Virus record (IMG/VR): IMGVR_UViG_3300017763_000248
Location: 1-21,380 of that record
Length of the DNA: 21,380 nt
Strand: one strand, 5' to 3'
From: a virus
Shown: in pieces, positions 4,652 through 21,380 of the stretch
Layout of the letters: every line of letters starts with the position of its first letter
How positions within the stretch are numbered: the stretch's first letter is position 1
Notes under the pieces: model-generated
Told to the model about the DNA's origin: nothing
Databases searched by the model: none
The model's input: only the letters and a program-made list of their open reading frames with translations
Made by a program: the position numbers and the translations under genes

Positions 4652-4665
4652 TAATATTCTTTTTT

Positions 4666-4682
4666 TTATTTATCTTTGAGTA
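4666..4682 (+). promoter_or_regulatory. Promoter-like element, copy 2 (TATCTTTG core)
   Basis: Exact second copy of the 3230-3246 17-mer, again just after a stop codon and 12 nt before the ATG at 4695. The core TATCTTTG (4671-4678) fits TAnnTTTG. It follows a run of T's (4661-4667). It could boost transcription of the major tail protein gene. No convincing -33 TTG is present. Confidence 0.45.
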
Positions 4683-4694
4683 AAATATTAAAAA

Positions 4695-5168: not shown

Positions 5169-5192
5169 TTATATTAATTAAACAATAATTTT

Positions 5193-5582: not shown

Positions 5583-5893
5583 TTACATGGGATGATATAC
5601 TAGACCAAGCAATTGGTACTTTAGGAATATCTCCCGACATCTTTTGGAACATGACTTGGTCAGACTTTATAAGGTCTATTGAGTCATGGGTTCATAATCA
5701 TAATCAGCATTGGGATAGGACAAGGTACTTAGCTACCTTGACTATCAATTGTTCTTTTGGCAACAAGAAAAGAGTATCTCCAAAAGACTTATTTAAACTA
5801 CCTCACGATAACGCTGATGAAAGAAAAACCCCTCTACCTACTCACGAAGAGATAAAATCTGTTATTGGTAAAGCCATAAAATTACCTATATAA
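5576..5893 (+). CDS. Tail assembly chaperone T extension, made by -1 frameshift (gpGT-like)
   Basis: Downstream part of a probable 233-residue fusion: 128 residues of the 5193 gene plus 105 here. The frame is open from 5567 to 5893, but its first ATG is at 5651, already inside a conserved-looking stretch, and no alternative start lies before it. The sequence KLVTWDDILDQAIGTLGISP, then FWNMTWSDFIRSIES, WDRTRYLATL and KRVSPKDLFKLP, matches the usual T-domain pattern 'W..l......lGlspdefW.mt..e.......W.rtr..a.....KR.kpedlf.lp'. A separate 80-residue protein from 5651 is the less likely alternative. It ends 19 nt before the tape measure. Confidence 0.75.
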   Translation, partial: KLVTWDDILDQAIGTLGISPDIFWNMTWSDFIRSIESWVHNHNQHWDRTRYLATLTINCSFGNKKRVSPKDLFKLPHDNADERKTPLPTHEEIKSVIGKAIKLPI

Positions 5894-5912
5894 TATTAGT
5901 TAAATTTGTGTT

Positions 5913-8102
5913 ATGGCATTAGGAGACAATAAATTATCAGTTTTCGTTTCACTCAGAGCGGAAAAATTTCAGAAAGGAATAAAGCAAGTACAATCGGGTT
6001 TTAAAACATTAAACAGAACCATTGGTGCTTTTTCAACTGCTTTTGTTGGTCAACAAATATTTCAATTATCAAAACAATTTGCCGATGCTGCTGGTGAGAT
6101 GGAAACCGTTGAGCGTAGTTTTGCTAGGTCTTTTGCTGGAATATCTAGTTCTGTTGAAACTGAGTTAGGTAAATTAGCTGATTCACTTAACAGAAATGAA
6201 ACACAACTAAAAAAAGGAGCGGTTTCTTTTAATGCATTTTTTAGTGGACTAGGTTTTGTCAGTAAAGAAGCTGCTGATATGTCTGTAAAAATGCAGACAT
6301 TATCTTTAGATTTAGCCTCATTTTTTGGTATAGCAGATTCAAATGCACAAAAAAGATTTTTATCCGCATTAGCTGGTTCTCCCGAAGTTTTAGATCAATT
6401 TGGTATTAACCTAAAGCAATCTGCATTACAATTAGAATTGTATCGAATGGGTTTAAAATCAACGGTACAAAATACTAGCGAGGTAATAAAAACCCAAGCA
6501 AGGCTTAATATAATAATGCAAGCCATGACTGATTCGGGTATTATTGGAGATGCATCTAGAGGATTAGATACCTATCAAGGTCAATTAAAGCAATTTGATG
6601 CTGCTTGGATTACTTTTTCTGAATCAATGGGTAAGGTAGTTATACCAGCTATAGTAGCAACACTATCAGCAATAAGTAAATTATTTAAGGCTTTTGTAAG
6701 ATTTAAAGAGATTCTTACTTTTGATCCTAAGGATGAAAGTGCGTTGCAAAGAAGCGGTAGACTTAAAGAAGAATTAAAACTCCTTAAAGAAAAGTATACT
6801 TTAATTGAATTAATAGCAGATGCTACTCCTAAAGTTGATAAAAAAACTCCAAAGCAAACAAAAGAAGCTGAAGAAGCGGTTAGAAAAATTCCCGTTGGTG
6901 AAACGCTAATTAAAAGTCAACAAAGAATACTAACAAAAGAAGAAATTAAAGACTTACTTGTATTAAATAAACAAATTAAAAATACTAATGAACTAAAGAA
7001 AAAAATGAACGATGTCGGTATTGAAACAAAAAATATCTCTAAGGATTTATTGCGTTTGACTGATATGAAGAGGGTGATTGATGTTAAAGTCGCTGATCAA
7101 CTTAAAGAAGAAAAAACAACAAGGGATGGAATTTTACAAGACATACAATCAGAAATTGATTCAATTAACGGTAAAGTTGAAAAAGAAAAGGAATATGATC
7201 AACTAGTTAAATTAAGTAGTAAAGAACTTTTAGAACTAGCTGCAACTCAAAAAAAGATAAATATATTAGAAGGTGAAAGAGTTCGAATTACGGGTGAAGG
7301 TAAGGAAGAGTTAGAAGCAAGTAAATCATTTTATGAAGATTTGGTTAGTTTATCTAAAAGGATAAAGCCAATCTCAGATATGCCTAAAAGACAAGTTTCA
7401 ATAGGTGATAAGGAACTTAACATGAAGACGGGTCATATTGAAAGAGTAACATCTGAAGAAGCCGCTGATAATTTAGGTAATCTTTTAGGTTTGGGAACGG
7501 TATCTGAACAAGAAAAAGCAATGCAAGACTTGATAGCAAGAAATACTGCTGGATTGGCTAAAATTGCTAGTAAATCTAAACAAGGAATGGATGATGCTGG
7601 TAAAAAATTATCAGAAGCTGGAATGACTTGGATTCAACTTATAAGACCAATTACAGATGCTTTTTCTGAAATGTTTATGCAAATGTTAACTCCTCCCGAT
7701 ACTACAATTAGTAAAGAAGAGCAAAAAGAAAAAACAATAGCTGCATTTGCTGGCATAATGGTTGGTTTAGGACAAGCTATGATGAGTTTAGGAATGGGTG
7801 GAATACTACTTGCAAAAGGACAAGAGTCAATAGGTTCGGGTAATATAGGACCAGCTATAGCAATGTTGGCTGGTGGCGCTGCCTTAGTAGCGTTAGGTAA
7901 AGGACAATTACAAAAAGTAAAAAATAGCGCACACGCAAGAGAACAAGCAACGGGAGGGGGTGCAAATGATGGTAGCAATGGTAATAGCATGGCTAGTTTT
8001 CTTAAAGCAGTTCAAGGAGAACAAACATTTAGGATAAATGGTGCTGATTTGGTTAGTGTGTTGGGTAGACAAAATAATTTTACAAATGCAATAGGAGGAT
8101 AA
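5913..8102 (+). CDS. Tail tape measure protein
   Basis: 729 aa. The N-terminus (KFQKGIKQVQSGFKTLNRTI) and the following Ala/Ser-rich helices are typical of tape-measure proteins. A long charged coiled-coil region spans residues ~250-490. Near the C-terminus are hydrophobic segments (around AGIMVGLGQAMMSLGMGGIL and AIAMLAGGAALVALG) that in this family insert into the host membrane during DNA entry. At the usual 0.15 nm per residue the tail would be about 110 nm; this is an estimate. Position after the G/GT chaperone and before the hub gene supports the call. Its 3' end forms AGGAGG at 8093-8098, one of the few good Shine-Dalgarno sequences, serving the next gene. Confidence 0.85.
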   Translation: MALGDNKLSVFVSLRAEKFQKGIKQVQSGFKTLNRTIGAFSTAFVGQQIFQLSKQFADAAGEMETVERSFARSFAGISSSVETELGKLADSLNRNETQLKKGAVSFNAFFSGLGFVSKEAADMSVKMQTLSLDLASFFGIADSNAQKRFLSALAGSPEVLDQFGINLKQSALQLELYRMGLKSTVQNTSEVIKTQARLNIIMQAMTDSGIIGDASRGLDTYQGQLKQFDAAWITFSESMGKVVIPAIVATLSAISKLFKAFVRFKEILTFDPKDESALQRSGRLKEELKLLKEKYTLIELIADATPKVDKKTPKQTKEAEEAVRKIPVGETLIKSQQRILTKEEIKDLLVLNKQIKNTNELKKKMNDVGIETKNISKDLLRLTDMKRVIDVKVADQLKEEKTTRDGILQDIQSEIDSINGKVEKEKEYDQLVKLSSKELLELAATQKKINILEGERVRITGEGKEELEASKSFYEDLVSLSKRIKPISDMPKRQVSIGDKELNMKTGHIERVTSEEAADNLGNLLGLGTVSEQEKAMQDLIARNTAGLAKIASKSKQGMDDAGKKLSEAGMTWIQLIRPITDAFSEMFMQMLTPPDTTISKEEQKEKTIAAFAGIMVGLGQAMMSLGMGGILLAKGQESIGSGNIGPAIAMLAGGAALVALGKGQLQKVKNSAHAREQATGGGANDGSNGNSMASFLKAVQGEQTFRINGADLVSVLGRQNNFTNAIGG

Positions 8103-8105
8103 AGT

Positions 8106-10652
8106 ATGGCGATATATAGAAATAAATACACATTAGAATTTGATGATGTTATAGAAGGAGAATTTAATGATTATAGACTAGAAATAAATAAAAAAGCAGC
8201 AGAAACAACAACTAATAATGTTACTATTGGTGCAACTAATAATAGTGGTGAAACTATAAATCAATTTGATCCCGTAAGAGTTGTATCGGGTGAAGTTGTA
8301 AGATCAAAAGCATCTGTAAGTAGTAGTATGCCAAGTACGGGTATAGCAACCATAGCCATTGCTAGTGGCACTACTACATCTAATGGTATTTTAGCATCGG
8401 GTGTTATTGAAGGAGTACCCTCACAAGTAATTGGGTATGATTATTATGTTGGAGTAAATGGAGGAACTACTAATACTGCGCCAACGGGTACTAATATTGT
8501 TCAAAAAATAGCAGTACAAGTAGCAAATAATTCTGTTGCTATATTAGATGTAACACAAGAATTAACGGGATCGGGAGAACCTATAAAACTAACCTATGAG
8601 GGTGATGATATTTTTAAACCAATTAGGGCAAGTTATTTAGATATTGATTTTGTTAAGGTAAATGATTCAGACAATTATGATGATTTATTCTTAGCTGAAA
8701 ACGATACGTTTCAAGTATTATTATATAAAAATTCAAATATATTTTGGCAAGGTTGGGTGGGTTCTCAGTACATATCAGAACCATATATTTCTGCACCTTA
8801 CAATATAACCATTAAGGCATATGATGGGTTGCATTTATTAAAGGAATTAAGTTATATAACACAACCCGAATGTGCAAGATTTTTGGATGCTAGTGCAACT
8901 TATCAAGTTGATAGATGGGGTTATCAGCAGTTTAATAGAGTAATAGAAAAGATGCTTTATTTTACGGGATTAACTGCTATTTCAAATCACGTATACTATG
9001 CCGTAAATATGAAGTCTACAAGTCAAACGGATTACGATGATTTTGATAGATATAATAGAATACATCATCACACTTACTTAGTTGAGGAGGGAAAATCAAA
9101 AACAATGACTAAGGTTCTTGAGGATATATTAACGGGTTTAGGGTTAATTATATATCAAAGAGATGCAAAATGGTGTATTGTAAAGCCATCTGATTTAACG
9201 CTTACGAGTACTAAAAATAATTGTATAAAAACATCTAGTTGGATCGATGAATCAACTACTAACCAAAGTTATTCAACAAGTGTTAGGAATACAGACATAT
9301 CATCTAGTTTTTATAGTGATGATGTACCATATAAGCAAATTGATGGTGCTGCAAACATGACCTTACAATTTCCATTAAAAAGAGTAACAATAAAAGATGA
9401 ATCTGATAGTAATGGCTTAATAGGTACATTTGGTTTAGATGAGGTAATAGATACAACTAGTAATGGATTTAATGATTGGACTAGTAATGATGCAGATGCT
9501 ACAGAAGTAGTTGTTTTTAAATATTCTGATCCAAATATACCGATTGAAGGGCAAAGTGATTATCAATCTTACATGGAAATTGATTTAGCATCAACGGGTG
9601 TGGTTATAAATGGTGAGTCTGATGATCCACATTTAATTAATGGTGAAGACAAAACAAATATTACAACAAATACCTCATTGCCAGCATATAAGTTAAAGTT
9701 TAAGATGAGAGTTTTAGCTGCTGGAGTAACATCTAATGATGAGTTAAGGGTATTGATATCACCTAGACTAACTAGAATTGATAATGGCAATGTTTATCAT
9801 TACTACACTAAAGAAGGTACTCAAAGTATAGAAGATGCGTGGTTAACTGATGCAGAAGCAGCAGCAGATACTAGCTATAGTATGAATTATATAACTATTG
9901 AAGGCAAGGGTAGTGTTAATAGATGGAAAACATATGAAATATTTTTTAAACCATCATTTATTAATGTTAATGTTACCTTACCTCTTTACGGTGCATTTGC
10001 AGTTTTAAAATCAAGTGGTGGTGGCGCATCTCAGCCACAAACTGCTCCATATGCTTATTATTATGATGTCACTTATTCTGACATAGAATTAATTCCATTA
10101 CCATCAAACCCAAGTTCGGGTAAGCAAGCAGTAAGTTCATATGATACGGTTGATCATATTGTTGAGAGTCCTAATAATTATAATTTTATTGAAGATAAAA
10201 CGGTAAACTTTGGATCAAAAATAAGTAATACGGGGGGTAATAGGTTGATTGCTTTTGATGATGATATAACAAACTCAACTTATGCTTTATTTTTAGCTAA
10301 TACAGATCAGCCATTAAAATCATGGTTAAATTGGAGTGATGGAGTATATAGTAATAAAACACTACAAATGCATTTAGCTATGTCTTATATGTATTTATAT
10401 TACAAACCCGTACGAAGAATTGAAGGTACACATTATGGTAATATGAAATATGGTGATTTATTGGTTGTAGATAACGGATTAAATGGTTCTCAAGGTAAGT
10501 TTTTCCCATTAAAAGTTGTTTTTAATTTTAGAATGGCAAGGGTTGATTTTACGGGAGATGACTTATTAGATAATTCATCAATAGATACATCTGATTTCGT
10601 CACTAAAATAAGATATAGTAGTAAAAATACATCTCATATTGAAACGATTTAA
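8106..10652 (+). CDS. Baseplate/hub-type minor tail protein with inserted beta domain
   Basis: 848 aa. Residues 1-30 (YTLEFDDVIEG, YRLEINKK) and ~157 onward (EPIKLTYEGDD, FKPIRASYLDIDF, FWQGWVGSQYISEPY, then a KAYDGLHLLKEL segment) form the start of a minor tail protein type seen after the tape measure in Bacteroidetes phages. The two parts are split by residues ~37-151, a domain ending NTAPTGTNIVQKIAVQV that resembles the N-terminal domain of the fibre at the left edge. The rest is beta-rich with many Asp/Asn/Ser residues and probably builds the tail tip. It may combine hub and receptor-contact roles. An SD-like AGGAGG precedes the start by 7 nt. Confidence 0.7.
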   Translation: MAIYRNKYTLEFDDVIEGEFNDYRLEINKKAAETTTNNVTIGATNNSGETINQFDPVRVVSGEVVRSKASVSSSMPSTGIATIAIASGTTTSNGILASGVIEGVPSQVIGYDYYVGVNGGTTNTAPTGTNIVQKIAVQVANNSVAILDVTQELTGSGEPIKLTYEGDDIFKPIRASYLDIDFVKVNDSDNYDDLFLAENDTFQVLLYKNSNIFWQGWVGSQYISEPYISAPYNITIKAYDGLHLLKELSYITQPECARFLDASATYQVDRWGYQQFNRVIEKMLYFTGLTAISNHVYYAVNMKSTSQTDYDDFDRYNRIHHHTYLVEEGKSKTMTKVLEDILTGLGLIIYQRDAKWCIVKPSDLTLTSTKNNCIKTSSWIDESTTNQSYSTSVRNTDISSSFYSDDVPYKQIDGAANMTLQFPLKRVTIKDESDSNGLIGTFGLDEVIDTTSNGFNDWTSNDADATEVVVFKYSDPNIPIEGQSDYQSYMEIDLASTGVVINGESDDPHLINGEDKTNITTNTSLPAYKLKFKMRVLAAGVTSNDELRVLISPRLTRIDNGNVYHYYTKEGTQSIEDAWLTDAEAAADTSYSMNYITIEGKGSVNRWKTYEIFFKPSFINVNVTLPLYGAFAVLKSSGGGASQPQTAPYAYYYDVTYSDIELIPLPSNPSSGKQAVSSYDTVDHIVESPNNYNFIEDKTVNFGSKISNTGGNRLIAFDDDITNSTYALFLANTDQPLKSWLNWSDGVYSNKTLQMHLAMSYMYLYYKPVRRIEGTHYGNMKYGDLLVVDNGLNGSQGKFFPLKVVFNFRMARVDFTGDDLLDNSSIDTSDFVTKIRYSSKNTSHIETI

Positions 10653-10673
10653 TAATTATTTGGAATTTTAGAT

Positions 10674-10688
10674 AGTCTTTATTAGACT
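10674..10688 (+). other. Short inverted repeat between tail and recombination genes
   Basis: AGTCT (10674-10678) and AGACT (10684-10688) flank TTATT within the 66-nt gap that separates the two gene blocks. The stem is only 5 bp and no T-run of note follows. It could be a weak terminator or an operator. I find no good TAnnTTTG promoter here. Confidence 0.2.
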
Positions 10689-10718
10689 TGTAGCTGAAAT
10701 ATTTTTCACATAAAACAA

Positions 10719-11261
10719 ATGCGTATGAATAAATCAGTAAATGAAAAGCTATTTGCTCTTCAAAATGAGATAGGTGCTATTAGCAAAGATGCTAAAAACC
10801 CTTTCTACAAGAGTAAATACTTTGATATTAATTCTTTAATAAACCAACTACAACCTTTACTCCAAAAACATAAACTACTACTATTACAACCAATTGAGGA
10901 ATCATTGGTGTATAGTAAAATGGTTTGTGTAGATACGGGTGAGTTTGTTGTTAGTTGTATGAAGTTACCCGAAATACTTGACCCACAAAAGATGGGTTCT
11001 GCGGTAACATATTATAGAAGGTATACATTGGGTTCATTGTTGGGATTACAATCCGTAGATGACGATGCTAACCTTGCGATTGGTGCTGGTACGAAACCCG
11101 TAAAAGCAAGACCAAAAAAGGAAAAACTATCAAAGGATAGATTTGATAAAGCAATTAGTGCTTACAAAGAAAATCCCGAAATAGTTAAAGACAACTTGAG
11201 AAACTTTGAGTTAGACCAAGTTCAAATCAATAAATTAAAATCACTTAAAATAACTTTATAA
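10719..11261 (+). CDS. ERF family single-strand DNA annealing protein
   Basis: 180 aa (a second ATG at 10725 is equally possible). Residues 11-56 (LFALQNEIGAISKDAKNPFY, then INSLINQLQPLLQKHKLLLL) and the motif DPQKMGSAVTYYRRYTLGSL (88-107), followed by QSVDDDAN, are the ERF superfamily signature. ERF proteins anneal complementary single strands in phage recombination. The C-terminal third is Lys-rich and variable, as in the family. The exonuclease two genes downstream is the expected partner, giving a two-component recombination module. First gene of a long operon. Confidence 0.9.
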   Translation: MRMNKSVNEKLFALQNEIGAISKDAKNPFYKSKYFDINSLINQLQPLLQKHKLLLLQPIEESLVYSKMVCVDTGEFVVSCMKLPEILDPQKMGSAVTYYRRYTLGSLLGLQSVDDDANLAIGAGTKPVKARPKKEKLSKDRFDKAISAYKENPEIVKDNLRNFELDQVQINKLKSLKITL

Positions 11262-11263
11262 TT

Positions 11264-11503
11264 ATGGCAGATTTATATTTTGCAAAATTGAATCTTGAGG
11301 CATTAGCAGCCTTAAAGGAAAAAGCTTACAATGGTAAGTATTTAGATGTGGCAGTATGGGTTAATAATGATTTAGATCATACTGATGACAATGAGAATTG
11401 GAAAGCAATTTCTATATCTCATGGTAACAAAAAGAAAGGTGAAGATGTTGTTTATGTTGCTAACGGTAAGAAATACGTTCAGCAAGAAACAATGCCTTTT
11501 TGA
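11264..11503 (+). CDS. Small protein between recombinase and exonuclease, 79 aa
   Basis: Unrecognised. It starts MADLYFAKLNLEAL, has a probable beta segment (KYLDVAVWVNN, WKAISISH, DVVYVANGKKYV) and ends ETMPF. It starts 3 nt after the ERF gene and its stop overlaps the next start by one base (TGATG), so co-expression is near certain. The C-terminal MPF recalls the -PF tip of single-strand binding proteins, but the protein is too short for a full SSB and the tip lacks their acidic run. A helper of the recombination module is an inference. Confidence 0.7.
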   Translation: MADLYFAKLNLEALAALKEKAYNGKYLDVAVWVNNDLDHTDDNENWKAISISHGNKKKGEDVVYVANGKKYVQQETMPF

Positions 11504-12255
11504 TGTTTGAGATTGTTAAAGTAATTGAAGATATGTCTAATAAGATGTATCATTCAGTAGGGACGGAGATTATATCTTCGTCCTATTTAAAAGGTGTTTA
11601 TAAGCATTCTATTAAAAGAGCAAGCGTTCCATTAGAATCAAATGATGCTTTAGTTTTTGGATCACATTTTCACGATATGTGTGAGTATGGTGTTGAAGAG
11701 TTTGAGAATAAGTATTCTGTCATACCCGATGAATGTTCAAACAAAAGAACAAAACTATACAAGGATTTTATAGCTAATAATAAGAATGCAATAACTAAGG
11801 TTGATTACAAGAAAGTTAGTCTTATGTATGATAGCTTAAATAGTAATTCATTCTATAGGGACTTGGAAGACAATTATAGTTCTTATGCTGAGTATAGTTT
11901 TTTTGCTAAGAAAGATGGTTTAGATTTTAGAATAAGACCCGACAAGTATTACTCATACGATTCAAAGATTGTCTATGTGGTTGATTTTAAAACTTGTCAA
12001 GATGTAACTAAATTTAAGTTTGATGTTAACACATACAATTATGATTTACAAGCGGTTTTTTATGCGGATGTACTTGGCATCAATCCCTCTGATTTTTATT
12101 TTATTGCTATTGAAAAAACATTTCCATACACGACCCAAATATTTGGATTATCGGATCACGCAATTGACAGAGGAAGAGCCAAAATGGATATAGCCATTGA
12201 CAGAATACAGAAAGGTGATGATGGTGTTGGTTATGAAATAGTACATAGGATATGA
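11503..12255 (+). CDS. RecE/Exo VIII-like PD-(D/E)XK exonuclease
   Basis: 250 aa from the ATG at 11503; an in-frame TTG at 11500 is less likely. Motifs in order: GSHFHD (53-58), AEYSF (129-133), a RIRPD turn (143-147) with D147, VVDFKT (159-164) with D161 and K163, and YDLQAVFYADVLG (180-192) with the conserved Gln. This is the pattern of the PDDEXK nucleases related to exodeoxyribonuclease VIII (PF12684 type). It would resect double-stranded ends to make 3' single strands for the ERF protein. It overlaps the next gene by 4 nt (ATGA). Confidence is high for the fold and moderate for the exact subfamily. Confidence 0.85.
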   Translation: MFEIVKVIEDMSNKMYHSVGTEIISSSYLKGVYKHSIKRASVPLESNDALVFGSHFHDMCEYGVEEFENKYSVIPDECSNKRTKLYKDFIANNKNAITKVDYKKVSLMYDSLNSNSFYRDLEDNYSSYAEYSFFAKKDGLDFRIRPDKYYSYDSKIVYVVDFKTCQDVTKFKFDVNTYNYDLQAVFYADVLGINPSDFYFIAIEKTFPYTTQIFGLSDHAIDRGRAKMDIAIDRIQKGDDGVGYEIVHRI

Positions 12256-13115
12256 AAATATTATTAACAAATAATCATTTAAACACTTTTGGTGGTTCTG
12301 AGAATTGGACATTTACGGTTTACTCTACTTTAAAAAAGCTAGGGCATTCTGTAGATGTTTTTGCTATTGATGTAGGTGGTGTAGGTACTGAAAGATTTGG
12401 TTTAGTCCATACTACTATACCTAATGTAACTTATGATTTAATTATTGCAAATCATAATAGTTGTGTAAATATTGTTTTGGAGAAGGCTAAGTATTCAAAA
12501 CTTGTTATGATGTGTCATGGCATTGTCCCTCACTTAGAGCAACCAATTAAGGGTGCTGATAGGTATATTTCTATTTCAAATGAAATACAATATCATTTAT
12601 TACTGCTGGGGTATAGAAGTGATGTAATACTAAATCCCGTTGATTTGGATGTTTGCTATCCAACTAAGCAATTAAACGAAACACCTAAAAAGATATTTGC
12701 TTTATGTCAAAACATAGGCGCACAAGAGAACGTAAAATCACTAGGATTGGAAACTCAATGCATTCCACCAACAAGAGGTGCTAGATTAGCAATTAGCAAT
12801 GATACATTTAATGAAGTAGACATATGTGTTGGTTTAGGTAGATCAGCTTATGAGTCATTGGCTTGTGGTAGATGTGTTGTTGTGTATGATGCTAGAGGAT
12901 ACAACGGTGATAAATACGATAGTATTGTTACTAGAGAAAACATTGGTGAATTACTTAAAAATAATTTATCGGGCAGAAGATTTAACAAGCCATTTAATAA
13001 GACTAAAATTCTTGATGGCATTGATAAATTGTATAGACCAAATACTGACTACTACAGAAGTATAGCAGAAGATTACTTTGATGCTAAAAAAATAGTTAAC
13101 CAAATAATAAAATGA
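12252..13115 (+). CDS. Glycosyltransferase, GT-B/GT4-like
   Basis: 287 aa. N-terminal Rossmann start (MKILLTNNHLNTFGGSENWT) with the GGSE donor/acceptor loop typical of GT4-like enzymes, then YDLIIANH, a MMCHGIV strand, a DRYISISNEI segment, VILNPVD and, near the C-terminus, SAYESLACGRCVVVYD, which corresponds to the E-x-(L/M)-A-x-G nucleotide-sugar site. It is shorter than most GT4 enzymes (about 350-400). Substrate unknown. It is coupled by ATGA to both neighbours, the exonuclease and a GT2 enzyme, so the two glycosyltransferases probably act in one pathway, for example on phage DNA, virion proteins or host surface glycans. Confidence 0.75.
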   Translation: MKILLTNNHLNTFGGSENWTFTVYSTLKKLGHSVDVFAIDVGGVGTERFGLVHTTIPNVTYDLIIANHNSCVNIVLEKAKYSKLVMMCHGIVPHLEQPIKGADRYISISNEIQYHLLLLGYRSDVILNPVDLDVCYPTKQLNETPKKIFALCQNIGAQENVKSLGLETQCIPPTRGARLAISNDTFNEVDICVGLGRSAYESLACGRCVVVYDARGYNGDKYDSIVTRENIGELLKNNLSGRRFNKPFNKTKILDGIDKLYRPNTDYYRSIAEDYFDAKKIVNQIIK

Positions 13116-13864
13116 AAGTAGCTATAACAAGAGTTAGAAATGAAGAGGTAATACTTAAATCCACATTGGATAGATTGTCATATCACTTTGATTGTGTAAT
13201 AGCATTCGATGATTGCTCTACAGACGGTACTAGAGACATTCTAAGCGAACATAAGCTAGTTAAACGTGTAATCACAAGCAATAAATGGGAAAGTCGCTCA
13301 GAAGTCCGTAAAATGCTTGAGACAACCCAAAGGCAAGACTTGTATGATTATGCAATGCGTAAGGAAGAAAACATTGATTGGATGTTATACTTTGATGCTG
13401 ATGAACATTTTTATTTTGACAATATAGAATGGGGTTCTAATTTCAGTTATTACTTTAGGTTGTTTGATGTTTATATAACTGCTGAAGACAAAGACAAATC
13501 ATTTATTGATAGGGAGTATATTGGTTGTGAGTATAGAGATATACCTATGTTATTTAGACCAAACCCTAAAGTAAGATTTCATAATCGTGTTCCATTAGGT
13601 ATTGATCCATTATTGATGATTGGTGGAACGGTAAAACATTTTGGTAAAGGGATATCTGTAGAGCATTGGGAGGAAACTTGTGATTATTATATTAATCATT
13701 TAAACGAGAGAATGCCAAATGGGGAAGACATTTCGACCAAGTGGAAACGAAGAAAAGGTAAAGCAATCCATAAGGGTGTGTCTGATTTTGGATTACCATT
13801 GATTAAATGGGATGACAGATACACAAGTGAACATATTATTAACCTAAACGAAGTAGACAAATGA
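13112..13864 (+). CDS. Glycosyltransferase, GT2/GT-A type
   Basis: 250 aa. Starts MKVAITRVRNEEVIL, then DDCSTDGT (33-40) and the metal-binding DAD in YFDADEHF (94-100; D95, D97), the hallmarks of family 2 GT-A enzymes of the type that begins 'RNEE'. The C-terminal half has many aromatic residues and His (VKHFGKGISVEHWEE), common in phage-encoded members. No membrane segment, so a cytoplasmic enzyme. Overlaps its neighbours by 4 nt on each side. The acceptor cannot be told from the sequence. Confidence 0.8.
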   Translation: MKVAITRVRNEEVILKSTLDRLSYHFDCVIAFDDCSTDGTRDILSEHKLVKRVITSNKWESRSEVRKMLETTQRQDLYDYAMRKEENIDWMLYFDADEHFYFDNIEWGSNFSYYFRLFDVYITAEDKDKSFIDREYIGCEYRDIPMLFRPNPKVRFHNRVPLGIDPLLMIGGTVKHFGKGISVEHWEETCDYYINHLNERMPNGEDISTKWKRRKGKAIHKGVSDFGLPLIKWDDRYTSEHIINLNEVDK

Positions 13865-14013
13865 AAATAGATTTATTAACACTATATATTAAAGACGAAG
13901 ATTTCTACGGAATAGACTTTTTGAGTATTAATGGAAAGGTATTATTAGGAATTAATTATGATAGTTTCTATAAAAAAATTCACTTTGAGTTATTCTTTAA
14001 GGTTATTAGATGA
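13861..14013 (+). CDS. Small protein of unknown function, 50 aa
   Basis: The ATG overlaps the previous stop (ATGA at 13861-13864) and the stop overlaps the next start (ATGA at 14010-14013), filling the gap exactly. That coupling is the main evidence that it is a real gene. The product starts MKIDLLTLYIKDEDFYGIDF and is rich in Phe, Ile and Lys, with a likely alpha/beta pattern and no membrane helix. No function is proposed. Confidence 0.65.
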   Translation: MKIDLLTLYIKDEDFYGIDFLSINGKVLLGINYDSFYKKIHFELFFKVIR

Positions 14014-14384
14014 GAAAACCAAAGACAAGGAATAATGGCTCAATGACAGAGGCAGCGTTCTTTGGCTGGTTACGTTCATTACTTAGAAATAGGTACATGA
14101 GGGGTTGGAAACCTCACAATGAAGTTGCAAAAGATAATCGTAGGGCAATAACATATAAAAGCAGAGCAAAGTGGGAATACCAATGTGCTGATTGTGGTGA
14201 TTGGTTTTTACGCAAAGAGATTGATATTGATCACATAAACCCATGTGGTACACTAAAATCCTTTGATGATTTATCTGAATTTGCTAAGAAATTATTTGTA
14301 GAAAAGGCTGGATTGCAAGTATTGTGCAAACCTTGCCACAAAAACAAGACATATGACAATGAAACTAATACACCATTACTTTAA
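14010..14384 (+). CDS. HNH endonuclease
   Basis: 124 aa. C59-x-x-C62 (QCADCG), then IDIDHINPCG with D74-H75, and LCKPCHKNKT with C106, C109 and H110: the standard zinc-stapled beta-beta-alpha HNH nuclease. The N-terminal 50 residues are basic (RSLLRNRYMRGWKP). Such enzymes act in phage packaging, recombination or homing. It is not beside a terminase here; it sits in the replication block, so junction or DNA-processing activity, or selfish homing, are possible. It overlaps the next ORF by 32 nt. Confidence 0.85.
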   Translation: MRKPKTRNNGSMTEAAFFGWLRSLLRNRYMRGWKPHNEVAKDNRRAITYKSRAKWEYQCADCGDWFLRKEIDIDHINPCGTLKSFDDLSEFAKKLFVEKAGLQVLCKPCHKNKTYDNETNTPLL

Positions 14385-14562
14385 GCATTTTAAAGAAGAT
14401 TTATTTGTTAACCTAGTAATTAAAGGGGACGAGGTGTTTGCGATAAATAAAATAACAAATTGCAAACATATTTTTGTAAACTCGGATGAAAGCATTAAGA
14501 TTACAAACAAAAGAGATTTAGAAAAAGTTAAAGATTACATTTATGACCGCAAAAAGTTTTAA
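14353..14562 (+). CDS. Small protein of unknown function, 69 aa
   Basis: Starts at ATG 14353 or at ATG 14359; the second reduces the overlap with the HNH gene to 26 nt. The sequence has an alternating strand-like region (LFVNLVIKGDEVFAINKI, CKHIFVN) and a helical end (KRDLEKVKDYIYDRKKF). Unrecognised. Its tail overlaps the next gene by 20 nt. Position between the HNH and helicase genes suggests a DNA-metabolism accessory, without direct evidence. Confidence 0.6.
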   Translation: MTMKLIHHYFKHFKEDLFVNLVIKGDEVFAINKITNCKHIFVNSDESIKITNKRDLEKVKDYIYDRKKF

Positions 14563-14824
14563 ACATAAACACCAACCAACCAAAGCATCATTGATTTTAC
14601 TTGATAGTTTGATACATAAAAGAATAGATCAGTATGATAGCTTGGAAGAGGCTTACCATATGAATAGATATGATTGGATGGCTAAAACCAAATGTTATTT
14701 ACCAACAACTTACAATGGCTATAGAGCAAAAGTCAGTAAGATGACCCGAAAGAAATTTACGGGTGTTAAGGCAAATAGACTAGCAAGTCACGTAGTTGAT
14801 TTCTATAGAGAATTACAAGGATGA
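14543..14824 (+). CDS. Small basic protein before the helicase, 93 aa
   Basis: Strongly basic and helical: HKHQPTKASLILLDSLIHKR, then AYHMNRYDWMAKTKCYLPTT, KVSKMTRKKFTGVKANRLAS and a closing helix. The ATGA overlap with the helicase gene (14821-14824) implies co-translation. A DNA-binding or helicase-loading role is plausible by charge and position, but I recognise no family. Confidence 0.65.
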   Translation: MTAKSFKHKHQPTKASLILLDSLIHKRIDQYDSLEEAYHMNRYDWMAKTKCYLPTTYNGYRAKVSKMTRKKFTGVKANRLASHVVDFYRELQG

Positions 14825-15843
14825 TTGATAGCTTTCTAGAGAATATAAATTATCTCCACAATTTGGTGATAATTAAGACCAATCTACCTCAAAAAACAAA
14901 GAAGGAGATTGTGATGACAATTCAATCAATGAAAAGAAGTCTTTCTGAATACGTAGAAAGTAATTCATTAACTGATTTAGATGGTGTAAACGATGATAAA
15001 TCTGAATTTTGGGATTGGTTAAACCAAGGTAGCAATGCTGAGACAACACATATAAAAGAATATGATAGGATGTTTAAGTGGAAATACGGATGGGTAAATA
15101 GTTGGACGGGGTATTCAAATGAAGGCAAGTCATCTTGGTTGTATTTCTTGATTTTAATTAAGCTATTAAAAGACCCAAATGCCAAAGTAGCCGTTTTCTC
15201 ACCCGAAAACTATCCTAGACATAAATTTGTTAAAGATTGGGTGAAGACAATGCTGGGATGCGATCCAAAGTATTCCACTAAAGTAAAATGTGAGAGAATG
15301 ATAGAGCAATTTAATGATAGATTGTTTTACGTATATCCTTCAAATCACGACATAGAAAGCATTGAGAATCAATTTAAAACATTGATTAAGGTTAATAAGG
15401 TAAACATAACGGTTATTGATCCTTTCTTAAAAGTGAGTAAGCCTACTACAATGAATGATTTGCAATATCTGACATCATTCATAAAGAGACAAGAGGTGTT
15501 TGCTAAACAATTTAACGTAAGTCATCACGTAGTTTACCATCAATTAACTCCACAAATTGACGAGACGGGTAACTACCCCGAACCCGATATGTATAAGATA
15601 AAAGGTGGTGGATCAATAACAGATGGATCAGATACGGTTTCTTCTGTTTGGAGACCTTATCGTAAAAGTGAGGAGGAAAATAAAAGTGTAATAATAAAAA
15701 CTCAAAAGGTAAAAGATTTCGATGTTTTTAAGAATGGTTACCTCAGATTAGATTACAATCTAATGAAAAACAGATATTTTTTGAATGGAATTGATATCTT
15801 TGAGCAATCAATTAAAAAAACGCAGAAGAGTGAATTATTTTAA
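14821..15843 (+). CDS. DnaB/RecA-fold replicative helicase-like ATPase
   Basis: 340 aa. Walker A GYSNEGKS (97-104; K103), a SPENYP segment (127-132) in the place of motif 1a, Walker B ITVIDPF (196-202; D200), the VVYHQLTPQ stretch (237-245) like the DnaB H3 region, and GGGSITDGSDTVSSVWRP (262-279) like the DnaB arginine-finger loop 'rGSg.ieqdADvv...R'. The N-terminal ~85 residues do not look like a full DnaB N-domain, so the protein is essentially one helicase C-domain. It probably unwinds phage DNA; an annealing or packaging ATPase is less likely. Overlaps the previous gene by ATGA. Confidence 0.8.
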   Translation: MIDSFLENINYLHNLVIIKTNLPQKTKKEIVMTIQSMKRSLSEYVESNSLTDLDGVNDDKSEFWDWLNQGSNAETTHIKEYDRMFKWKYGWVNSWTGYSNEGKSSWLYFLILIKLLKDPNAKVAVFSPENYPRHKFVKDWVKTMLGCDPKYSTKVKCERMIEQFNDRLFYVYPSNHDIESIENQFKTLIKVNKVNITVIDPFLKVSKPTTMNDLQYLTSFIKRQEVFAKQFNVSHHVVYHQLTPQIDETGNYPEPDMYKIKGGGSITDGSDTVSSVWRPYRKSEEENKSVIIKTQKVKDFDVFKNGYLRLDYNLMKNRYFLNGIDIFEQSIKKTQKSELF

Positions 15844-15845
15844 TT

Positions 15846-16325
15846 ATGAAAACGATTTTAACACTAATGGCGTTAATGAGTGCTATAGTAGCACCTAATG
15901 CCACCATAGATAATCTTTGCGAAGACACAACCGTTGTTAAAGAATACCATCAAATAGACTCTGTAGATTACTTGCTTGAAAGCATGATACTTGTTGAGTC
16001 AAATGGTGATTCATTGGCGGTTGGTGATACACATATGAGTACACCAAGCATAGGATTACTACAGATACGTAGAGTTATGGTAAAAGAGATTAACAGAATT
16101 TTAAGAAAACAAGGTAGTAAGATGCGCTATTTTTACAAAGATAGGTGGAGTGCGACCAAGTCAGTAGAGATGTATTATATTTGGAAAGATTTTCATCATC
16201 AAGAATCTAGTAATGAGATTATTGCTAGAAATTGGAATGGAGGAACTTACGGGTATAAAAAAAGATCAACAATCCAATATTGGGCAAAAGTTAAAAACAA
16301 TATAAAAAATGCACAATCCATTTGA
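15846..16325 (+). CDS. Secreted lytic transglycosylase (SLT-like)
   Basis: 159 aa. A signal-like N-terminus: K2, hydrophobic core ILTLMALMSAIV, then APNAT, a possible cleavage site. Motifs MILVESNGD (47-55; catalytic Glu E51) and SIGLLQI (68-74) equal the SLT signature 'ai...ES...p....s..G.mQi'. Residues NWNGGTYGY (129-137) fit the late motif 'a.YNgG'. It would cleave peptidoglycan glycan strands in the periplasm, either as an endolysin exported by the host Sec system or for DNA entry. It starts 2 nt after the helicase and begins the lysis block. Confidence 0.75.
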   Translation: MKTILTLMALMSAIVAPNATIDNLCEDTTVVKEYHQIDSVDYLLESMILVESNGDSLAVGDTHMSTPSIGLLQIRRVMVKEINRILRKQGSKMRYFYKDRWSATKSVEMYYIWKDFHHQESSNEIIARNWNGGTYGYKKRSTIQYWAKVKNNIKNAQSI

Positions 16326-16500
16326 GAATAATTTAATTTTAATAGAAGAACTTAGCGAGCATTGGTCACACATTAATTGTATTGACAATTCTAGTGTAGC
16401 TATTATAGATACTTTGCTAGGTGTTTTATTTAAGATAAATACTAAGTATTCAGAGGCTTTTATTGAAGATCAAATTAAAGGAATAATAGAAGATGAATAG
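16309..16500 (+). CDS. Small protein of unknown function, 63 aa
   Basis: Acidic, probably helical (NNLILIEELSEHW, VAIIDTLLGVLFKI, AFIEDQIKGIIEDE). Its start lies 17 nt inside the transglycosylase gene and its end overlaps the next gene by 8 nt. There is no strong membrane segment, so it does not look like a holin. Unrecognised. The overlaps on both sides are the best evidence that it is expressed. Confidence 0.55.
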   Translation: MHNPFENNLILIEELSEHWSHINCIDNSSVAIIDTLLGVLFKINTKYSEAFIEDQIKGIIEDE

Positions 16501-16690
16501 CATAGGATTTTATCCCCCAAGAGGAGTAGATGGTGTTTTGGTAGATAATCTATCTGAATTACCCACAACTGCCAAAATACAAGATTATAATGAGTTTTTT
16601 AGGTTATATGTTGATGATGATAATGTTAGATACATATACAAAATAAAGAATCCAAAAAGTCCACTTTCAAAATTATTATCAAGAAATTAA
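16493..16690 (+). CDS. Small protein of unknown function, 65 aa
   Basis: Begins MNSIGFYPPRGVDGVLVDNL and ends with a basic tail (PLSKLLSRN). The FYPPRG stretch and alternating hydrophobic residues (FFRLYVDDDNVRYIYKI) suggest a compact beta fold. Its last stop base is the first base of the amidase start (TAATG at 16688-16692), so the two are coupled. A control factor for the endolysin is conceivable but not shown. Confidence 0.6.
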   Translation: MNSIGFYPPRGVDGVLVDNLSELPTTAKIQDYNEFFRLYVDDDNVRYIYKIKNPKSPLSKLLSRN

Positions 16691-17253
16691 TGATTAAAGC
16701 ACCTAAAGTAATACCATCAGTTAGAGTTTTTAGACCAAATTCAGAAAGAAGTAGTACTAATGGAATTGTTATACATTCCATGTCTGAAAGGTTTGGTGGT
16801 AAATCTGCATCAGAGTTTTTACAAGATATAGGATTAAGTGTTCACGCATTTATTCATACTGACGGTAAAATTGAATTGGCACAAGTTCAAGATAAAAAAG
16901 CTTACCATGCTGGTAAAAGTGAATGGAACGGTGAAACAAATTTAAACAACACATTTTTAGGAGTTGAATTGTTGGTGAGACATAGCTATGCTAATAATCA
17001 ATTTGAGTCGTTTAAGAATACGGTAATGAATACTGATTGGGTTGGTGCATTACAATTTGATTCTTTAGTTTGGTTGTGTCGCAAATGGTCTAAGGAATAT
17101 GATATAAACTTGGACAATATTGTAAGACATTCGGATGTTAGTGGTGATCACGTTAGAGGTAGTGGTAAGGGTAAATTTGATGTTGGTGATGGTTTCCCTT
17201 GGAAACTATTTAAAGATTATATGAATGGCAATGGACTTGCCGATAAATTATAA
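16690..17253 (+). CDS. N-acetylmuramoyl-L-alanine amidase endolysin (Amidase_2)
   Basis: 187 aa. NGIVIHSM with zinc ligand H29, AYHAGKSEWNG (71-81), GVELLV with E93, IVRHSDVSGD with ligand H147, and a KFDVGDGFPW end motif with D164: the N-acetylmuramoyl-L-alanine amidase (PF01510) pattern, cutting the bond between MurNAc and the stem peptide. No signal peptide, so it needs a holin or another route to the wall; the 40-residue membrane protein just downstream is the candidate. A full single domain with no cell-wall binding module, usual for phages of Gram-negative hosts. Confidence 0.9.
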   Translation: MIKAPKVIPSVRVFRPNSERSSTNGIVIHSMSERFGGKSASEFLQDIGLSVHAFIHTDGKIELAQVQDKKAYHAGKSEWNGETNLNNTFLGVELLVRHSYANNQFESFKNTVMNTDWVGALQFDSLVWLCRKWSKEYDINLDNIVRHSDVSGDHVRGSGKGKFDVGDGFPWKLFKDYMNGNGLADKL

Positions 17254-17254
17254 A

Positions 17255-17377
17255 ATGCGTTTTGGAAAGACAGAATGTTCAAACTTAATTAAATCATTAG
17301 GTTTACTCATTTCTGTTTTAATTATAATATCATTTATAATATTATTTATTAAATATGCGATTTTTAGTTTGCGTTAA
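17255..17377 (+). CDS. 40-residue single-helix membrane protein, holin candidate
   Basis: Starts one base after the amidase stop. The product begins MRFGKTECSNLIKSLG, then one long hydrophobic helix (residues ~15-33: LGLLISVLIIISFIILFIK) and ends with Arg. Its last 23 nt overlap the next gene in another frame. A small one-helix protein immediately after an amidase without a signal peptide suggests a holin or pinholin. Most holins have two or more helices and about 60-150 residues, so this would be a minimal type. An accidental ORF cannot be excluded, but exact packing against the amidase argues for a gene. Confidence 0.5.
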   Translation: MRFGKTECSNLIKSLGLLISVLIIISFIILFIKYAIFSLR

Positions 17378-18401
17378 ATCTGAATATAACGCTATAAGTT
17401 ATCACAGATTAAAAAAACCTTTTGAATACCTACAAAAGAAAGGACACCATTGTGATTTTGTATATAATTTCACATATGATGTGGTTATTGAAGGATATGA
17501 TTACTTTGTTTACAATAGAAGTATTGGATATGGAGATGTTGATATTGGTTTATTAGAAAAGATAAGATCACAAGGTATTAAGATAATTATTGATGTAGAT
17601 GATTTGTGGGAATTACCTAATCATCATCCAATAGTTTGGCGAGATGATGTTGATTATGGTGAGTGGAAGAACAACTTTCTGATGAACATAGCATTTGCTG
17701 ATTATGTTTGGACAAGTACGGAGTATTTAAAAATGAAAATTGAAGATTTATTTGACAATAAACCCGTAGTTGTAGTAAAGAATGCTATTGATTATGATGA
17801 CCCACAATGGGTAGATAGCAAAGGAAAGAGAAGAAATAAGAATAAAACGGTTATAGGTTATGCTGGTAGTACTACCCACTACGGTGACTTAGACCAAATG
17901 AAAATACCATTTAGAAGGTTAAATGATAACAAGACCTTTCGTAGAAATATGGTTTTTCAATTGTCGGGTGTTGATTTTGTTAATCCTTATGCTAAAAAGG
18001 TTTGGCATCATCAGCTAGGAATATTTACTGACGATGGTAAAAACAAAAACGTATTTATTTCGGGTGGTGTTAAGGTAAATCAATACGCTAGATTCTTTGA
18101 TCAAATGGACATAGTTATTGCCCCATTAATTGACAATGAGTTTAATAGATGTAAGAGCGAGTTAAAGGTGTTAGAGGCTGGGAGCAAATGGTTGCCATTT
18201 ATTGGATCAGACATGATAACATTCTCAAGAACGGGAGCAAATATTGACCTATGCTCTGATAATGACGAGTGGGTTGAATCAATATTAGAATTAAGCTTAG
18301 ATAAATCACTTAGAGAGATGCTAGGCAAGGAGTTGGGTGAATATGTTCGTGATGTTTATTCAATAGATAAAGAAAATCAAGCTAGACTAAGTATTTTATG
18401 A
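17355..18401 (+). CDS. Glycosyltransferase, GT-B like (third in window)
   Basis: 348 aa. Starts MRFLVCVKSEYNAISYHRLKKP, then YDYFVYNR, IIIDVDDLWELP (79-90), a VWTSTEYLK segment, VVVVKNAID, TVIGYAGSTTHYGD, VVIAPLIDNEFN and SELKVLEAGSKWLPFIGSD. The IDvDDlwelp, 'aGs..H..dl' and K-x-x-E-a-g motifs are those of phage and bacterial GT4-like enzymes that work on surface or virion glycans. Cytoplasmic, no membrane segments. It overlaps the PD-(D/E)XK gene by 4 nt. It is separated from the other two glycosyltransferases by about 3.5 kb but transcribed with them. The acceptor is unknown. Confidence 0.75.
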   Translation: MRFLVCVKSEYNAISYHRLKKPFEYLQKKGHHCDFVYNFTYDVVIEGYDYFVYNRSIGYGDVDIGLLEKIRSQGIKIIIDVDDLWELPNHHPIVWRDDVDYGEWKNNFLMNIAFADYVWTSTEYLKMKIEDLFDNKPVVVVKNAIDYDDPQWVDSKGKRRNKNKTVIGYAGSTTHYGDLDQMKIPFRRLNDNKTFRRNMVFQLSGVDFVNPYAKKVWHHQLGIFTDDGKNKNVFISGGVKVNQYARFFDQMDIVIAPLIDNEFNRCKSELKVLEAGSKWLPFIGSDMITFSRTGANIDLCSDNDEWVESILELSLDKSLREMLGKELGEYVRDVYSIDKENQARLSIL

Positions 18402-18766
18402 ATTTAGGTGAGTATGCTGAGTCACTATTCACCACAATATGCATAAGAGAAGGATACACCGTTTCTAAGCCATTTTATCACGAGATAAGGTATGATTTAG
18501 TAGTTGATGTAAATAATGCCTTACAGAGGGTTCAAGTAAAGTCTACGGATCATGTGCGTCCAAAAGACAATCAATGCCAAGTTAGAGTTAATTACAACAA
18601 GAAAGAAGTAGATTGGTTTGCAATTTATATACATAAAACCAATGATTGGTTTGTCTTGCCAATAGATGTTGTTGAAGATATTAGACAATTCTCAATAAAA
18701 TTAGGTTATAAATCAAAATACGATATTTTTAAAAATAATTTTGGATTTGTCAGACATGGTTTTTAG
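18398..18766 (+). CDS. Small PD-(D/E)XK endonuclease
   Basis: 122 aa. NLGEYAESLF (2-11; E8), a RYDLVVDV strand (31-38; D33) and LQRVQVKST (42-50; Q46-x-K48) give the E...D...(E/Q)xK order of small PD-(D/E)XK nucleases such as PF11645 and Holliday-junction-like enzymes; Gln in place of Glu is accepted in many members. The second half (DWFAIYIHKTNDWFVLPID) is the strand pair that follows the core in this family. Single small domain with no visible recognition module. Could resolve junctions or act as a homing or anti-host nuclease. Coupled to the glycosyltransferase by ATGA. Confidence 0.75.
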   Translation: MNLGEYAESLFTTICIREGYTVSKPFYHEIRYDLVVDVNNALQRVQVKSTDHVRPKDNQCQVRVNYNKKEVDWFAIYIHKTNDWFVLPIDVVEDIRQFSIKLGYKSKYDIFKNNFGFVRHGF

Positions 18767-18771
18767 ATTTG
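18741..18771 (+). promoter_or_regulatory. Candidate internal promoter (TTG-N20-TAGATTTG)
   Basis: TTG at 18741-18743 lies 20 nt before TAGATTTG (18764-18771), agreeing with the Bacteroidetes -33/-7 arrangement (TTG, then TAnnTTTG). It straddles the stop of the nuclease gene and would drive the 18799-19621 genes. Chance matches to this degenerate motif are frequent in AT-rich DNA. Confidence 0.4.
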
Positions 18772-18798
18772 AATATTATTAATCTTTAAACACATGAT

Positions 18799-18864
18799 AT
18801 GGATACAGACCAAAAATTAAAAGATTTGTTTGAATTACTCAATCCAAAACCTAAGACTAAATGA
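18799..18864 (+). CDS. 21-residue mini-ORF upstream of zinc-binding protein
   Basis: Encodes MDTDQKLKDLFELLNPKPKTK. Its TGA overlaps the next ATG (ATGA at 18861-18864), the junction style used throughout this operon. It fills the 94-nt gap after the nuclease gene. It may be a leader peptide coupling translation to the zinc protein, or a micro-protein with one amphipathic helix. Its shortness keeps confidence low. Confidence 0.4.
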   Translation: MDTDQKLKDLFELLNPKPKTK

Positions 18865-19184
18865 TTTGTGCAAATTGTAATAAAATCTTTGAAAAGGCTA
18901 AAGAAGAGGGTATTAACGGTAGAGCAAGAAAATACTGCTCTGTGAAGTGTAGAACCGATAATCAAAGCAGAATACACAAGTTAAGAAGAGTTGATAAAAG
19001 CAAATATCCAAGTTCTAGAGAAGTTGATAAAATTGTTAATAGTTACTCAAAAGATATTGTAACGGTTGACTATGATTGGGTATTCTCAAGAAATATATTA
19101 GATTGGTGTTCATCTAGAGACTCTAAATTTAGAAGTAATTATAAAAAACAAAAAGCAAATGAAAAAAAACAAGAAACAATATAA
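18861..19184 (+). CDS. Cys4 zinc-binding protein, 107 aa
   Basis: ICANCNK (C3, C6) and KYCSVKCR (C27, C31) form a treble-clef-like Cys4 site, as in the 'C..C...f.......yCs..C...' motif of small DNA-binding proteins and resolvase-type zinc fingers. The rest is basic (RIHKLRRVDKSKYPSSREVD) with a Lys-rich end. Likely a DNA-binding or regulatory phage protein. Its start is set by the overlap with the mini-ORF. It overlaps the following gene by 26 nt. Confidence 0.7.
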   Translation: MICANCNKIFEKAKEEGINGRARKYCSVKCRTDNQSRIHKLRRVDKSKYPSSREVDKIVNSYSKDIVTVDYDWVFSRNILDWCSSRDSKFRSNYKKQKANEKKQETI

Positions 19185-19621: not shown

Positions 19622-19628
19622 AAGGGAT

Positions 19629-19645
19629 ACGGTGGGGGATACCGT
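19629..19645 (+). other. Short GC-rich hairpin after the last operon gene
   Basis: ACGGT (19629-19633) and ACCGT (19641-19645) pair across GGGGGAT, 7 nt after a stop codon, inside a near-direct repeat of GGATAC. No T-run follows. It might help end transcripts, with the better terminator 130 nt downstream. Confidence 0.25.
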
Positions 19646-19771
19646 GGTTCATTTTCTAAATGAGAATATTTTTACCTCACTTTAAAACGGTTTTCTAAAT
19701 TTAAGAATGCCTATATAAAAACCACTAAGATTTTAAGACAATAATGCTACACAAATGCATTGAATATTTAG

Positions 19772-19806
19772 AGGGAAATCGTAATTGGTTTCCCTTTATT
19801 ATTTTA
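19772..19806 (+). terminator. Intrinsic terminator of the main operon
   Basis: AGGGAAATC (19772-19780) pairs with GGTTTCCCT (19787-19795), a 9-bp stem with one G-U pair and a GTAATT loop, followed by a T-rich tract (TTATTATTTT). Classic Rho-independent form. It lies 150 nt after the stop at 19621 and separates the long operon from the origin-like region. Confidence 0.75.
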
Positions 19807-19862
19807 AAAATAAATTCAGCTAATTTCTAGACATAATTCTTTGATTATTCTGTATGAAATTT

Positions 19863-19872
19863 AGACCAAATT
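19863..19872 (+). repeat. Outlying iteron copy
   Basis: AGACCAAATT, identical to members of the array at 20055-20111 but about 190 nt upstream, separated by the AT-rich stretch. May be chance, or a second binding site. Confidence 0.4.
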
Positions 19873-20054
19873 TATAGCCATATTCCAAGGGATAATTCCA
19901 CACATATCTTATGGTAATCTCCACTAAATAATGAGATATTTTTACTTATAATATCCTTAATAAATTACTCAGTCTTACTAAGAATTTATTTAAAATAATT
20001 ATTTATTTTTTTTTGAAAATATTTTTATTAAAATATATTTTAAATAGAATTTTT

Positions 20055-20111
20055 AGACCAAGTTTTAGACCAAATTCAGACCAAGTTCAGACCAAATTTT
20101 TAGACCAAATT
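20055..20111 (+). repeat. Iteron array, five copies of AGACCAARTT
   Basis: Copies start at 20055 (G form), 20067 (A), 20078 (G), 20089 (A) and 20102 (A), spaced 12, 11, 11 and 13 bp, about one helical turn, so a protein could bind all copies on one face of the DNA. The same orientation throughout. Typical of iterons for replication initiators or of repressor arrays. Confidence 0.75.
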
Positions 20112-20137
20112 TATTTTGAGATTTGAGTTTTGGCAGA

Positions 20138-20146
20138 TGTGGAAAA
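20138..20146 (-). promoter_or_regulatory. DnaA-box-like 9-mer
   Basis: TGTGGAAAA on the plus strand reads TTTTCCACA on the minus strand, matching TTWTNCACA. It lies 27 nt after the iteron array. Confidence 0.5.
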
Positions 20147-20210
20147 CTAATATTTCATTGTTAAAAACTTTTAAAAAAAATATTTGGTTTTATTGTTTTT
20201 ATTAATTATC

Positions 20211-20222
20211 ACGTGCGCACGT
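20211..20222. repeat. Perfect 12-bp GC-rich palindrome
   Basis: ACGTGCGCACGT is its own reverse complement and is the most GC-rich stretch of the surrounding AT-rich DNA. Seven T's begin at 20222. As a hairpin it has only four base pairs, so a dimeric protein site is likelier than a terminator. Confidence 0.5.
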
Positions 20223-20251
20223 TTTTTTATATGTCATTGATTTATAAAGAG

Positions 20252-20260
20252 TTATCCACA
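20252..20260 (+). promoter_or_regulatory. Consensus DnaA box TTATCCACA
   Basis: Exact match to the bacterial consensus DnaA box, 30 nt after the palindrome. A perfect match in an iteron-bearing region is strong support for an origin. Confidence 0.65.
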
Positions 20261-20278
20261 TTAAAATTAATTTACGAT

Positions 20279-20287
20279 TGTGGAAAA
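20279..20287 (-). promoter_or_regulatory. DnaA-box-like 9-mer
   Basis: TGTGGAAAA again (TTTTCCACA on the minus strand), the same 9-mer as at 20138 and 18 nt after the consensus box, in opposite orientation to it. Confidence 0.5.
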
Positions 20288-20378
20288 GTTTTTGTTAATT
20301 TTTAGCTTAAAAGTTTTTTTATTCATTAAATGTGTTTTATCATTGCTAAACATTATTTAAAACATAAATAAAAACAAG

Positions 20379-21294: not shown

Positions 21295-21380
21295 ATGAAA
21301 AGAATAACATTTAAAATAAAGAATACTATTCACGTGTTCAGATATGGCAAAACGACCAATTCAAAAATAAGTGATCCAAA
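21295..21380 (+). CDS. Start of a further small basic protein (3' partial)
   Basis: ATG at 21295, 5 nt after the preceding stop, open to the right edge: MKRITFKIKNTIHVFRYGKT and on. Basic, with strand-like alternation. Too little is present to assign. Confidence 0.5.
   Translation, partial: MKRITFKIKNTIHVFRYGKTTNSKISDP

Follow-up and report, generated by a model that had tools for sequence, protein, structure and literature searches.

The window, meaning the whole 21,380-bp stretch of DNA analysed here (~68% A+T), is the record IMGVR_UViG_3300017763_000248 of an uncultivated phage; it is the complete record and probably a fragment of the genome. Its main genes point rightward and comprise tail genes, genes for an Erf protein, a RecE-like exonuclease, likely glycosyltransferases and a DnaB-like helicase, lysis-type genes and small ORFs. 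Four of them are referred to below:

10719–11261, plus strand: Erf-type single-strand annealing protein (PF04404, 5.8e-20)
11500–12255, plus strand: RecE/exonuclease VIII-like nuclease (PHROG 412, 1.1e-40; PF12684)
14821–15843, plus strand: DnaB-like helicase (PHROG 239, 4.5e-18; PHROG 19, 9e-12; PF03796 at 6.8e-5, under the Pfam cut-off)
18861–19184, plus strand: zinc-finger-like ORF, conserved near the repeat array described below, not tracking repeat type

The top helicase match in the phage collection was Tenacibaculum phage JQ (32% identity) and the remainder were mainly Flavobacterium phages, so the protein matches point to Bacteroidota as the likely host. A close annotated relative of the window was absent from that collection. 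No polymerase or primase gene was seen for this phage, which has its own helicase, Erf protein and exonuclease, and it therefore needs an entry point for the helicase.

A gap of 757 bp (19622–20378) without a credible gene lies between a small ORF ending at 19621 and a second group of small genes, both flanking groups being rightward; this is the gene-free region named in the first-pass annotation. It contained the following features:

19769–19798, plus strand: terminator-like hairpin closing the upstream gene group, with a 13-pair stem and a T-rich tail; sequence kept in L010, L011, L014 and L026
19863–19872, plus strand: single AGACCAAATT copy, 192 bp upstream of the array, kept in close relatives
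19985–20054, no strand: AT tract, probable unwinding element, with 2 G/C in 70 bp; the least stable 60-mer of the record begins at 19987
20055–20064, plus strand: iteron 1, AGACCAAGTT, 8-bp core 98% conserved
20067–20076, plus strand: iteron 2, AGACCAAATT, core 99% conserved
20078–20087, plus strand: iteron 3, AGACCAAGTT, core 93% conserved
20089–20098, plus strand: iteron 4, AGACCAAATT, core 99% conserved
20102–20111, plus strand: iteron 5, AGACCAAATT, core 81% conserved; several relatives lack it
20138–20146, minus strand: DnaA-box-like TTTTCCACA, 80% conserved in the class A alignment; the form TGTGGAAAACTAATA recurs in class C
20211–20222, no strand: palindrome ACGTGCGCACGT, 94% conserved; a CGCGCG core occupies the slot in other lineages
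20252–20260, plus strand: consensus DnaA box TTATCCACA, 95% conserved; absent in class B, L278, L114 and L022
20279–20287, minus strand: inverted DnaA-box-like TTTTCCACA, starting 27 bp from the start of the consensus box
20338–20345, plus strand: weak candidate -7 element TATCATTG of a Bacteroidota-type promoter for the right-hand genes; slot pattern in 11 relatives

The iteron values refer to 16 aligned sequences. The five AGACCAARTT copies and the near-pure AT tract before them, both claimed in the first-pass annotation, were present, and its one consensus DnaA box and two minus-strand boxes were all exact. The candidate origin region sits between the terminator-like hairpin and the promoter-like element. 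Dinucleotide shuffles predict 0.27 copies of AGACCAARTT for the record, which has 8, every one on the plus strand; five lie within 57 bp and two, outside the gap, are inside genes (11213 and 16732). TTWTCCACA occurred 4 times against 0.91 expected, three of the four within 150 bp. The A+T-rich composition of the genome, where chance would supply roughly one DnaA-like 9-mer per record, might suggest an artefact of AT-rich intergenic DNA, unrelated repeats and chance boxes. This is very improbable: 0 of 100 shuffles gave 8 copies, and contigs with helicase identities of 71–99% still have the array, the AT tract and the palindrome slot, a conservation that already refutes the idea. DNA of annotated phages gave only weak, chance-level matches to the gap region, and a search for RNA families found none.

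Some 50 related loci were gathered by scanning with the helicase, with the array and with one right-arm protein, and ~25 of them reach the gap. In these ~25 contigs the layout was an AT tract, direct repeats at once, and then boxes and/or a GC-rich palindrome; in many relatives a promoter-like element followed the box/palindrome stretch. In the alignment of 16 sequences, conservation reached 98–99% in the cores of iterons 1, 2 and 4, 95% in TTATCCACA and 94% in the palindrome slot; most of the stretches surrounding these elements had 65–88%. Wherever both were intact, the consensus DnaA box and its inverted partner started 27 bp apart throughout class A.

Nearest-neighbour stability was profiled at 18 loci from all four repeat classes. 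The least stable 60-mer of the whole locus lay directly upstream of the repeats in 18 of the 18, which are related and hence not independent; in L264 it was the very first 60 bp of the contig. Among the quantitative results, this minimum makes the best case for an unwinding element, whose melting is predicted. Two contigs from the same metagenome (3300032736), L264 and L270, end at or beside the array (L264:1 and L270:1) and carry opposite genome arms of a related phage; the assembly probably broke at the repeats. Since most related contigs continue across the region, it is unlikely to be a fixed genome end or cos site.

The repeats of the relatives fell into four classes:

Class A, AGACCAAA: the window, L010, L011, L014, L016, L017, L026, L265, L263, L124, L268, L093, L264 and L293
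Class A', AGTCCAAA first and then AGACCAAA, some with AGAGCAAA: L022, L024, L277, L114 and L278
Class B, AGGGCAAA and AGTCCAAA, 15–16 bp apart: L283, L284 and L290
Class C, GGGGCAAA and GGAGCAAA, spacing 13-13-9 or 14-13-9: L288, L289, L291 and L285

Repeat type thus varied between lineages while copies stayed alike within most arrays, as expected if one protein reads the sites. L264 and L270/L293 had class A repeats although their proteins are only ~26–86% identical to those of the window, and the repeats of classes B and C shared the core SCAAA. The helical spacing reported in the first-pass annotation held roughly for the window (12, 11, 11 and 13 bp) but not as a general phasing, since relatives had 13-13-9 or 15-15-15; spacings were mostly 11–16 bp and lineage-specific. 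Consensus DnaA boxes were found in most of class A and also in L024 and L277, and class C had the forms TTAT[TC]AACA and TGTGGAAAACTAATA; none were seen in class B, L278, L114 or L022. The boxes thus come and go across lineages, while the AT tract and the repeats form the constant core.

A protein reading the repeats was sought in the window and its relatives. The first-pass annotation saw no initiator gene in the window, and indeed none was recognisable in this genome fragment, most of whose small ORFs have no assigned function; genes of the helicase, Erf and RecE-like exonuclease are nevertheless present. A Rep-type winged-helix initiator, as in iteron plasmids, was not found, and the right arms of relatives encoded no protein resembling a known initiator. 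One conserved right-arm protein (L011:16413–17159, whose homologue starts at 21296 in the window) has distant homologues in Mycobacterium and Gordonia phages. A 93-aa ORF overlapping the helicase start (14543–14824, plus strand) was rejected as a dedicated reader because L290 and L291, whose repeats are of other types, encode versions 91% identical to that of the window, and because no match to it was found in L293 though the array is present there; comparison of its fold model matched nothing. The zinc-finger-like ORF (18861–19184) was also rejected, as it exists in two forms, 55% identical, within class C; its structure model was poor.

L290, of class B, and L291, of class C, were compared protein by protein. 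All proteins encoded between Erf (L290:6903) and L290:14697, both included, were 98–100% identical, and the first ORF past the array was 100% identical. The two contigs differed in the tail genes, in one array-adjacent lipoprotein-like ORF (L290:14709–14984; L291:14709–14990) and in the array itself; the right arm is not fully covered by either contig. This leaves three candidates for the reader: a single protein that recognises the two repeat types alike, a protein encoded by the right arm, or a protein of the host. The lipoprotein-like ORF was 29% identical between types and 96–100% within them, and its form tracked class B or C in 7 of 7 contigs; most likely it travels with the array by position. 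Near-identical replication genes beside different repeat types amount to a natural experiment on the repeat reader and on a swap of origin specificity by recombination.

The main rival to an origin is a regulatory array, in which a phage or host regulator on the repeats controls the right-hand early genes, or ends or antiterminates transcription from the left; DnaA might then be a transcription regulator and the AT tract an UP-like or bent element. The repeats do lie upstream of the right-hand genes with a promoter-like element downstream, AT tracts occur at promoters too, and operator arrays can be lineage-specific as well. Some right arms of relatives also carry genes for proteins with the alpha-CTD domain of RNA polymerase, whose fold binds AT-rich DNA. 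Such proteins (PF03118) were seen at L264:3116–3532 (minus strand, 1.9e-16) and L289:19905–20429 (minus strand, 4.1e-11) and possibly act on host transcription. The promoter slot of 11 relatives read TTG-N(19-20)-TATACTTG or TATAATTG, a strict pattern that the window itself does not match. It lay 221–262 bp downstream of the first repeat and not over the repeats, which is far for an operator, though other promoters may exist. Repressors or activators of known families were not seen in the window, and unwinding accounts better for the extreme stability minimum that every profiled locus has beside the repeats. We therefore consider a regulatory array rather unlikely, and the alternative raised in the first-pass annotation, that the repeats are repressor operators only, is weakened.

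The word AGACCAA was not confined to the array. It occurred 19 times in the window, always on the plus strand and never on the minus strand, and 14 of these copies lay outside the array:

4013, 4486, 5060, 5602, 7644, 11109, 11213, 13035, 13556, 14876, 16732, 17891 and 18807 (starts, within 4013–18813), plus strand: thirteen dispersed AGACCAA copies
19863, plus strand: the fourteenth, which is the single copy upstream of the array

With arrays masked, AGACCAA was the most over-represented coding-strand 7-mer of five class A contigs (66 against 11.3 under a second-order model). Against synonymous shuffles that kept protein and codons it was enriched 2.7- to 4.6-fold in six class A contigs, and 0 of 500 shuffles reached the observed number; these contigs are related and the tests are not independent. 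Under the synonymous null it ranked 2nd among all 7-mers in L011, 2nd in L293 and L264 together, 4th in L017 and 27th of 960 in the window. The reading frames of the dispersed copies were mixed, so a repeated peptide is not their cause. In leftward genes the degenerate motif tended to stay on the plus strand (5 against ~1.3, small numbers with some shared sites), a hint from sequence that the polarity may belong to DNA rather than RNA; a gene-sense RNA motif was accordingly not favoured as the cause. The degenerate RGRSCAA was also enriched in an unrelated Flavobacterium phage (control L299), so this enrichment is unspecific and a claim is made for AGACCAA only.

The strand-oriented dispersed copies were the least expected finding, and because AGACCAA is scattered genome-wide on one strand the 7-mer is not specific to the array site. 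A genome-wide, strand-oriented motif might then serve something other than initiation, e.g. Chi-like recombination, priming, DNA condensation or partition, and the array would be where its copies lie closest together. The over-representation in six contigs and the lack of minus-strand copies in the window agree with this. It would leave the AT tract and boxes beside the array unexplained, however, and loci of the other classes keep an array with almost no dispersed AGACCAA (one copy in the left part of the L277 contig); RGRSCAA is moreover enriched in the unrelated phage as well. We regard such a role as quite unlikely. A single protein might also recognise AGACCAA in the array as well as at the dispersed sites, which come about once per 1.5 kb on one strand; this would couple initiation to a polar process such as priming, helicase reloading or recombination, and the word would have been re-tuned between lineages. 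We judge this similarly doubtful.

On balance, the gap region is probably a theta-type phage replication origin with short iterons that is opened with host DnaA. An origin, the candidate put forward in the first-pass annotation, is the best single reading: diverged relatives keep the order of AT tract, repeats and palindrome slot, and in every profiled locus no other stretch is predicted to melt as easily as the AT tract, but the boxes are clade-specific and phasing fails family-wide. We infer the following course of protein binding, melting, helicase loading and start of synthesis. A repeat-binding protein would coat the AGACCAA iterons, host DnaA would sit on the flanking boxes where present, and the two together would melt the adjoining AT tract. 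The phage DnaB-like helicase (14821–15843), the likely user of the candidate origin, would then be loaded onto the opened strands, and host primase and polymerase would copy the genome. Several points stand against an origin: no initiator was found, the boxes are missing in some lineages, the repeats are short and unphased, the 7-mer recurs across the genome, and the cumulative GC skew suggested as a check showed no turn at the candidate origin. Skew was positive on both sides of the array, less so to the right, and negative in two leftward-gene blocks of relatives; since it broadly follows gene direction, it speaks neither for nor against an origin. Scans of viral and genome contigs with a loose iteron pattern gave mostly unrelated matches, many of them probably coding repeats with a 12-bp period, and were set aside.

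In a DnaA-dependent bacterial oriC an AT tract is combined with consensus 9-bp DnaA boxes. The window and its clade resemble this in having an AT tract and a consensus box, but only three boxes are present here; they lie beyond a repeat array that is separate from them, and some relatives have lost them. The lambda ori consists of 19-bp near-perfect inverted repeats within the O gene that bind O dimers (PMC5043065). It likewise has repeats carried by a phage and an adjoining AT-rich tract that opens (PMC5043065), whereas the repeats here are short, direct and intergenic, 4.2 kb from the helicase gene, and are accompanied by DnaA boxes with no O-like gene. Iterons of plasmids are 17–22 bp long and generally helically phased (PMC4980987, PMC5043065), and RK2 oriV has a direct-repeat array, an adjoining AT-rich unwinding element and DnaA boxes (PMC4980987). 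The window shares with it about five repeats, the adjoining AT element and DnaA boxes beyond the repeats, i.e. the RK2 order read backwards (PMC4980987), but has an 8–10-bp core and lineage-specific spacing. Most likely the region works like an iteron origin in the lambda/iteron-plasmid scheme, and no named plasmid or phage family is claimed for it. In the literature library that was searched, no paper with a mapped origin of a Bacteroidota phage turned up. Short iterons with dispersed plus-strand copies in one lineage lie outside the textbook picture of iterons.

Two further features were seen in relatives. L289 (17944–18422) and L277 (17588–17851) had a similar non-coding stretch in the right arm with complementary pieces of the CCCTA/TAGGG and GGTG/CACC types, possibly a structured RNA. 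In L264 a long non-coding stretch (3855–5080) ahead of the small terminase gene contained a ~65-bp segment twice.
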